Below are positions 43,262 to 56,388 of a stretch of DNA of 64,000 bases, piece after piece (within the stretch, counting starts at the first letter, position 1; every line of letters begins with the position of its first letter). The DNA is from Nitrososphaerales archaeon. Its GTDB lineage: Archaea > Thermoproteota > Nitrososphaeria > Nitrososphaerales > Gagatemarchaeaceae. A program made the position numbers and the translations under genes. Below the pieces are notes generated by a model. It was not told where the DNA came from and made no database searches. It saw nothing but the letters and a program-made list of their open reading frames with translations. The DNA is taken from assembly GCA_032906765.1 (NCBI GenBank), contig JAJTZB010000006.1:62001-126000 (forward strand). The letters are read 5' to 3'.

Positions 43262-43389
43262 GCCGGGGTGGCAGAGTGGTTAATGCGCGGGCAACCTGCT
43301 TAGAAATGAGGCGGGTCCGCAACTCGAGATCACACAACCAGTCAGCCCGTGACCTTCGGGTCTCGTGGGTTCGAATCCTACCCCCGGCG
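43262..43389 (+). tRNA. tRNA-Ser with intron(s)
   Basis: Acceptor GCCGGGG (43262-43268) pairs with CCCCGGC (43382-43388), followed by G73, the serine discriminator in archaea. The T arm GTGGG-TTCGAAT-CCTAC and a long variable arm GACC-TTC-GGGTC identify a class II tRNA. The anticodon stem CGGGC/GCCCG encloses 52 nt instead of 7. No single intron leaves a loop with U33. The best fit is two introns of about 30 and 15 nt around CTCGAGA, giving anticodon CGA at 43325-43327. Amino acid firm; anticodon and introns inferred. Confidence 0.8.
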
Positions 43390-54858: not shown

Positions 54859-55052
54859 GTTGTCTCGTCGAGCCGCCCCTTTGGGTTAATAATCTATTGC
54901 GAGAACCCGGCCCGATTTTCTGAAGACGAGAGCCACGGCCGAGATTCGGATAACTCGCATCACTCCGAAACACCACATTTTGGAGTTCGTCAGACGAACC
55001 CCATTTGGCCAAGGGACGGGTTGGTGCTATTATAGAACCAAAAGGTTTCATA

Positions 55053-56156
55053 ATGTATTACACGTGGGCGCAGGGATTCCTTGGCGAGGCGTTCGGACTG
55101 TCAATGACTGACGGAAGTCTCCCAAAACCAGTCCAGGCCGCGCCTATGGCGGTTCACTCCCACGACGAGTTCGTCCAAGCAATTACATCTCTGCGTGAAC
55201 GCTATACCAACAAGGAGTTGACGCCGAACGAACGCAAGCGTTTCGTTCAATCGATGTACTACTTGCTCGGATGGATGGTGGGAGACGCAGAAAAAGGGAT
55301 GGGCTCTAGACGCCTGATGACCGTCAGAATTAAACTAGAACTGTGTCGGAAGCATCCAGAGAATCTACGACTAGGAAATTACGTGATGTCGTGTGTAGAG
55401 CTGCTTGGCATCCGCTGGGCAAGGCTACCAGACCGGCCTTCACGGCCAAGAGATCCCCACGGGTCGTATCTTTGGGGGTCTCGTTTCTCACATATCTTGG
55501 GCTGGATGTTCACGGCTTGCTTAGGACTCGCATGGAACGAACGAGCTTCATACACCCCCGTCAAGATGGGTTGGTTGCTCTCGGCCCCAGAAGAGATGCG
55601 AATCTGGTTCCTCAGAGGCTTGGCTGATTCCGACGGCGACGTGCACTTCAGGAGCAAGGCGGTAGACATAACGAGCCTTCCGAACACACCCTTCATTAAA
55701 AAGACATTCGACTCGATAGGAATACGAAGTAGAACAAGATATCAAAAGGCGAAGAGATGCAGTAGCATCACTGTCTCTGTATACGACGCCTTCAGAATCC
55801 GGCTTTTCAATCCGTATATTCCGACTCACAGGCGTAATATGCTCGAAAGGCTGGCAAGAGCAAAGACCCACCCTCGCCATTGGCCTGCTTGGCTCGAAGC
55901 CAAGGTGTCGCGCCTGATTCAAGAAAGGCACGACGCCAGGTCGATATGCGAAAGAGTTCTCGACGAAGACAACGTCTTCATCAAGATGCATACAGTAAGC
56001 AGGAAAATGGAACGTACAAGACCCAATCCAGCGCCCAGAAGATCAAGGAGCCTCGAGTGGGACTCGGACCCACGACCTTTGCCTTACCAAGGCAACGCTT
56101 CGGCCAGTAAACCCTCTAGCCAGCTGAGCTATCGAGGCTCGCCGAGACCAACTTAA
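55053..56156 (+). CDS. LAGLIDADG-type homing endonuclease-like protein
   Basis: The product has two LAGLIDADG-like helices: YLLGWMVGDAEKG (first) and WFLRGLADSDGDVHFRSKAVDITS (second), as in single-chain enzymes, plus intervening beta/alpha region. ATG 55053 follows a TATA element (CTATTATAGAA near 55027-55037) by about 20 nt; a longer frame opens upstream. The last ~36 codons run antisense through the tRNA-Thr gene, so the real C-terminus might be earlier. It is free-standing, not in an intron. A WhiA-like or other derivative is possible. Confidence 0.7.
   Translation: MYYTWAQGFLGEAFGLSMTDGSLPKPVQAAPMAVHSHDEFVQAITSLRERYTNKELTPNERKRFVQSMYYLLGWMVGDAEKGMGSRRLMTVRIKLELCRKHPENLRLGNYVMSCVELLGIRWARLPDRPSRPRDPHGSYLWGSRFSHILGWMFTACLGLAWNERASYTPVKMGWLLSAPEEMRIWFLRGLADSDGDVHFRSKAVDITSLPNTPFIKKTFDSIGIRSRTRYQKAKRCSSITVSVYDAFRIRLFNPYIPTHRRNMLERLARAKTHPRHWPAWLEAKVSRLIQERHDARSICERVLDEDNVFIKMHTVSRKMERTRPNPAPRRSRSLEWDSDPRPLPYQGNASASKPSSQLSYRGSPRPT
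56049..56138 (-). tRNA. tRNA-Thr (GGT) with D-arm intron
   Basis: On the minus strand: acceptor GCCTCGA, D stem GCTC...GAG, anticodon stem-loop TTGCC-TTGGTAA-GGCAA (anticodon GGT), T arm GTGGG-TCCGAGT-CCCAC, acceptor TCGAGGC, T73. Between the D-stem 3' strand and the anticodon stem an extra 16 nt (56098-56113, GGTTTACTGGCCGAAG) must be removed to restore GAGC-G; the spliced length is then 74 nt. That puts the intron at about position 24/25, not at the canonical 37/38. Confidence 0.88.
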
Positions 56157-56238: not shown

Positions 56239-56388
56239 GCCGGGGTAGCACAGCTTGGTCTACTGCGCCGGGGCTAGCCGTAGCGGCGTGACTCATAATC
56301 GACCAGGATGCGAAATCCGGAGAGGACGTAGAACTCCCCGGTGATCGCGGGCTCGAATTGAAAGCGAACGAGAATCCCGCCCCCGGCA
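56239..56388 (+). tRNA. tRNA-Met (CAT), elongator type, with apparently four introns
   Basis: Acceptor GCCGGGG / CCCCGGC and A73 frame 150 nt. Anticodon CAT is at 56294-56296. To give the elongator fold four insertions must go: about 56272-56290 (19 nt, anticodon stem 30/31), 56299-56315 (17 nt, about 37/38), 56323-56343 (21 nt, variable region) and 56358-56374 (17 nt, T-loop, between CTCGAA and T). Removing 74 nt leaves a normal 76-nt tRNA with stems CCGGA/TCCGG and GCGGG/CCCGC. Exact junctions may shift by 1-2 nt. tRNA-Ile2 is less likely by resemblance to archaeal elongator Met. Confidence 0.82.

Follow-up and report, generated by a model that had tools for sequence, protein, structure and literature searches.

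A tRNA-Met(CAT) gene of a Gagatemarchaeum-like archaeon that very probably carries four introns

Three introns is the maximum given for an archaeal tRNA gene (PMC4033280, PMC4390854, PMC6379350), and the tRNAscan-SE 2.0 paper also describes archaeal tRNA genes that hold up to three (PMC8450103). In the Thermoproteales, three introns each are found in Pyrobaculum calidifontis tRNA-Glu(UUC) and P. islandicum tRNA-Pro(UGG) (PMC4390854, PMC4033280, PMC4090602). The Thaumarchaeota are known to have an alpha2beta2 tRNA endonuclease (EndA), and unusual tRNA introns are plentiful there (PMC4090602). tRNA genes of the red alga Cyanidioschyzon merolae show up to three introns as well (PMC3978253), and an algal elongator tRNA-Met has three introns situated at non-canonical sites (PMC4090602).

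The gene reported here is found in a 64,000-nt stretch of genomic DNA, termed the window. The sequence evidence makes it very probable that this is a working elongator tRNA-Met gene, from a Gagatemarchaeum-like archaeon, and that four small introns interrupt it, one above the published maximum of three. The Thermoproteales genes are similar in having small introns flanked by bulge-helix-bulge (BHB) motifs, at both canonical and non-canonical sites, with cutting by an alpha2beta2 EndA expected. The present gene differs from these in its four introns, its Nitrososphaerales host and a conserved base pairing of intron 2 with the D-loop. The thaumarchaeal non-canonical introns modelled in tRNAscan-SE 2.0 are of the same phylum and the same kind, with up to three per gene (PMC8450103). 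The algal elongator gene represents the same tRNA species, but it is eukaryotic and has three introns, not four. No report of four introns in one tRNA gene was found in the open-access full-text literature; an unseen report is possible.

The preliminary description of this DNA, made from the sequence alone, had referred to the Thermoproteales as the main setting of multi-intron tRNA genes and had called four introns in one gene extreme. The latter rating is justified by the published maximum, whereas the host here belongs to the Nitrososphaerales (group I.1c / Gagatemarchaeum-like) and not to the Thermoproteales. Named members of the host's family include several Thaumarchaeota / Nitrososphaerales MAGs as well as 'Candidatus Gagatemarchaeum stordalenia'.

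The gene has the following parts, with exon boundaries taken from the sequence and from comparison with relatives:

56239..56388, + strand: complete elongator tRNA-Met(CAT) gene with four introns between five exons; the mature tRNA is 76 nt (ARAGORN on the spliced sequence)
56239..56271, + strand: exon 1, 33 nt, tRNA positions 1-30
56272..56290, + strand: intron 1, 19 nt, GGCTAGCCGTAGCGGCGTG, site 30/31; central helix 25-28 CGCC:GGCG, inner hairpin GCTA-GCCG-TAGC
56291..56297, + strand: exon 2, 7 nt, ACTCATA, positions 31-37, with the anticodon CAT inside
56298..56314, + strand: intron 2, 17 nt, ATCGACCAGGATGCGAA, canonical site 37/38; central helix 32-35 CTCA:TGCG with one U-C mismatch
56315..56322, + strand: exon 3, 8 nt, ATCCGGAG, positions 38-45
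56323..56343, + strand: intron 3, 21 nt, AGGACGTAGAACTCCCCGGTG, site 45/46 in the variable region; central helix 40-43 CCGG:CCGG
56344..56357, + strand: exon 4, 14 nt, positions 46-59
56358..56374, + strand: intron 4, 17 nt, TTGAAAGCGAACGAGAA, site 59/60 in the T loop; central helix 54-57 CTCG:CGAG
56375..56388, + strand: exon 5, 14 nt, positions 60-73

Site 30/31 of intron 1 lies within the anticodon stem. The spliced 76-nt sequence, GCCGGGGTAGCACAGCTTGGTCTACTGCGCCGGACTCATAATCCGGAGATCGCGGGCTCGAATCCCGCCCCCGGCA, shows complete acceptor (7/7), anticodon (5/5) and T (5/5) stems, and a D stem of 3 bp plus a C13-C22 mismatch (window 56248-56266). ARAGORN reads the spliced 76-mer as tRNA-Met(cat), and the 150-nt unspliced gene gives no match with ARAGORN or with the Rfam tRNA model at its gathering score. 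The extent of the gene, the insert lengths, their locations and the mature length in the preliminary description all agree with the sequence and with ARAGORN. Its reading of a four-intron tRNA-Met(CAT) is likewise borne out by the cloverleaf that is restored on removal of the four inserts, by the BHB helices and by the relatives, with the addition that one insert, intron 2, occupies the canonical site.

Initiator tRNA-Met is marked by an A1-U72 pair and three G-C pairs at 29-31:39-41. The spliced tRNA has G1-C72 and A31-U39, thus the initiator features are absent. The initiator gene itself was not located; a search with GGCTCATAACC gave one match, which is not readable as a tRNA.

For the splice junctions, the registers that leave a proper mature tRNA were enumerated and then scored by the BHB rule, in which four exon bases, ending two bases short of the exon's 3' end, pair with four intron bases that end two short of the intron's 3' end. 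This fold had been proposed earlier as a check on the gene, and all four junctions fit the rule, with 4/4, 3/4, 4/4 and 4/4 central helix pairs at 30/31, 37/38, 45/46 and 59/60. When each intron was shuffled and every register keeping the mature tRNA unchanged was allowed, the chance of an equal match was P = 0.083, 0.16, 0.030 and 0.027 for introns 1 to 4, and the product of the four values is about 1e-5 if they are independent. The presence or absence of the inserts one by one in relatives is stronger evidence than this shuffle test. Three-nt bulges with an inner helix h' are good at introns 1 and 3, and relaxed forms are found at introns 2 and 4.

In an unconstrained fold of the whole precursor, helix 1 has P = 0.76, helix 3 P = 0.99 and helix 4 P = 0.98-0.99, and the intron 2 central helix has P = 0. 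The latter helix is a full 4 bp in relatives, with TGAG in G033 and TGGG in G031. Registers 38/39, 39/40 and 40/41 were tried for intron 2 and give a poorer helix than 37/38 in the window gene; register 38/39 suits the intron better in G001, G002, G003, G010 and G011. For several relatives, one or more of the BHB helices or the D-loop pairing are not favoured when the precursor is folded without constraints. The global fold of the precursor has an unremarkable z-score of -1.39, and the case for the introns is therefore independent of it.

The gene was identified in 28 of 46 genomes of the family by pattern searches and reading of the sequences. The 18 genomes with no match are partly incomplete, or the gene may differ at the pattern positions. 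All four introns are found in the window's genome, in G006 (a complete genome in one contig), in G026 and in G011. Ten of the 28 genomes show introns 1, 2 and 4, eight show introns 1, 2 and 3, and the remainder have two introns. The introns are present or absent separately from one another across relatives, and the intron at 37/38 is found in nearly all family members in which the gene was detected. In other families of the order, most of the genes found carry intron 1 at 30/31, some with a variable-region insert in addition; in a sister family (f8), intron 1 is absent in many members. A search for further carriers by the 3' end pattern gave no match that reads as a tRNA, and no viral contig among those searched contains the gene. 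The introns were probably gained stepwise, with that at 30/31 present across much of the order, that at 37/38 nearly family-wide, and those at 45/46 and 59/60 coming and going.

A subgroup of the family displays another elongator Met type, with a GCCGAGG acceptor, the D-loop AGCCTAG and two or three introns (L159, L216, L218-L221, L223, L224). Both gene types occur in one genome, G031, which may be due to contamination.

Paired changes are found at the junctions as well as in the spliced product. Helix 3 is CCGG:CCGG in the window gene, CCGA:TCGG in G006 and G026, and CTGG:CCAG in G027. Helix 4 is CTCG:CGAG in the window gene and CTCA:TGAG in G011. The anticodon stem varies across the introns as CCGGA/TCCGG, TCGGA/TCCGA, CCCGA/TCGGG and CCAGA/TCTGG; this stem comes together only after splicing. 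Such compensatory changes are what selection for a spliced, working tRNA would leave.

The weak D stem and the failure of standard finders on the gene could point to a decayed tRNA-Met pseudogene with random insertions, an intact gene elsewhere being the active one. However, the remaining stems are all intact, and three further genomes keep the exons and the four-intron pattern while showing compensatory changes. A second, intact elongator Met gene, which the preliminary description had named as evidence against its reading, was sought by DNA, pattern and tRNA-model searches and was found neither in the window's genome, a 95.6% complete draft, nor in the complete G006. A second gene might lie in the part that the draft lacks; none is seen in the complete G006. 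Decay of this kind is extremely unlikely. It is also very unlikely that a real tRNA-Met gene is present with fewer than four introns, either by removal of introns 1 and 2 or of introns 2 and 3 as one larger event or with boundaries situated elsewhere. The small size of exons 2 and 3 and the imperfect central helix of intron 2 would favour this, but these two exons contain the anticodon loop along with the 3' side of its stem, with no tRNA possible without them, and each intron is independently present or absent in relatives.

The anticodon CAT alone cannot tell an elongator Met tRNA from a tRNA-Ile2(CAU), in which C34 is modified to read AUA. However, the Ile tRNA of the window's genome and the other CAT tRNA of G006, which is among the best tRNA-model matches there and has an Ile2-type acceptor, show a GGGCC-type acceptor, versus GCCGGGG...CCCCGGCA in the gene reported here. 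The latter is the usual archaeal elongator Met acceptor and is found in many genomes of the order, mostly in single copy. An Ile2 identity is exceedingly improbable.

Intron 2 of this gene also carries a complement to part of the D-loop:

56254..56260, + strand: D-loop stretch CTTGGTC, pairs over 7 bp with GACCAGG of intron 2 (56301-56307)

In the unconstrained fold of the window precursor this pairing has P = 0.98-0.99; it is not predicted by the fold in some relatives. Each of the 28 genes carrying intron 2 contains a D-loop complement of 6-9 bp (G-U allowed). Among 21 distinct D-loop/intron 2 pairs, the mean Watson-Crick run is 5.57, versus 3.47 for shuffled introns, and none of 5000 partner permutations reaches the observed mean, relatedness being uncontrolled in this comparison. 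Changes in the two partners leave the pairing intact, with CCTGG facing CAGG, CTTGG facing CCAAG, and CCTAG facing CTGGG (G-C to A-U), and it occurs in two registers. A BHB of intron 2 based on the D-loop helix was considered by inspection, and no arrangement cuts at the right places. The pair 13-22 is mostly C-U, C-A or U-U in relatives with intron 2 and C-G in relatives without it. The mismatch is consistent with an opening of the D arm in the precursor, and shared ancestry could also account for it.

The window's genome encodes two EndA paralogues and an RtcB gene. In one paralogue, P0001, the Tyr, His and Lys residues are retained, and the protein resembles archaeal EndA chains of solved structure. 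The other, P0002, is without the His in alignments to solved EndA. From these sequences we infer one catalytic and one structural paralogue, which would assemble as an alpha2beta2-type enzyme. The whole precursor would be transcribed, the heterotetrameric tRNA endonuclease formed by the two EndA paralogues would cleave the eight junctions, and RtcB would ligate the five exons, including the two of just 7 and 8 nt. Introns 1, 3 and 4 would be excised first, their helices being formed already in the full-length precursor. Intron 2 would be the last to leave: the 7-bp D-loop pairing would hold it until closure of the anticodon stem becomes possible and the D-loop is freed. In an in silico fold of the intermediate with only intron 2 remaining, the anticodon stem is formed. 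Tentatively, the pairing might silence the canonical intron and prevent the anticodon arm from closing until all three non-canonical introns have been removed, giving a built-in splicing order. No precursor-folding checkpoint of this type is described for archaeal tRNA in the literature searched.

A second tRNA gene is found beside the tRNA-Met gene:

56047..56138, - strand: tRNA-Thr(GGT) gene, head to head with the tRNA-Met gene

The same pair is present in the complete G006 (L190), and the tRNA-Met genes of the two genomes are orthologous by position because the tRNA-Thr(GGT) gene is head to head with them in both. In the window tRNA-Thr(GGT), about 15 nt are inserted near position 25, and the G006 orthologue displays a T-loop insert instead. 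The window's genome appears intron-rich, with many of its about 40 tRNA genes (loci L021-L064) longer than an intronless tRNA and with apparent inserts in the D-loop, anticodon arm, variable region and T-loop. A tRNA-Gly(GCC) in L062, read by eye, seemingly carries three inserts. A tRNA-Ser-like gene of about 128 nt at 43262-43389 (+ strand), with at least one insert, is matched by Rfam and missed by ARAGORN.

An open reading frame at 55005-56156 shows a match at 55056-56030 (+ strand) to Pfam LAGLIDADG_3 (E = 0.024, below the cut-off). Its 3' end abuts the 3' end of the tRNA-Thr(GGT) gene, and the frame continues antisense through that gene. A PDB search with this reading frame gave only stathmin matches, which are judged spurious. 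A convergent tRNA gene likewise follows the four closest homologues (L159-L162) and a fragment in the same genome (G000:C6:132238-132405), with about 10-30 nt between their ends and the 3' end of the tRNA gene; the tRNA is mostly Thr, and in L159 it is elongator Met. Of the more distant homologues, 19 were examined, and no tRNA match is found nearby. These reading frames seem to form a family of putative homing endonuclease genes sited at tRNA 3' ends.

The tRNA-Met gene packs five exons, the two smallest of 7 and 8 nt, into 150 nt and raises the apparent limit on the fragmentation of a tRNA gene, and extreme intron load extends beyond the hyperthermophilic Thermoproteales. Genomes with such genes seem to be without an elongator tRNA-Met, as standard finders overlook them. 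The pairing between the D-loop and intron 2 provides a concrete, testable claim on how an order of splicing could be set. The clade offers a presence/absence series for each intron site in otherwise similar genes, which is useful for the study of tRNA intron gain and loss.
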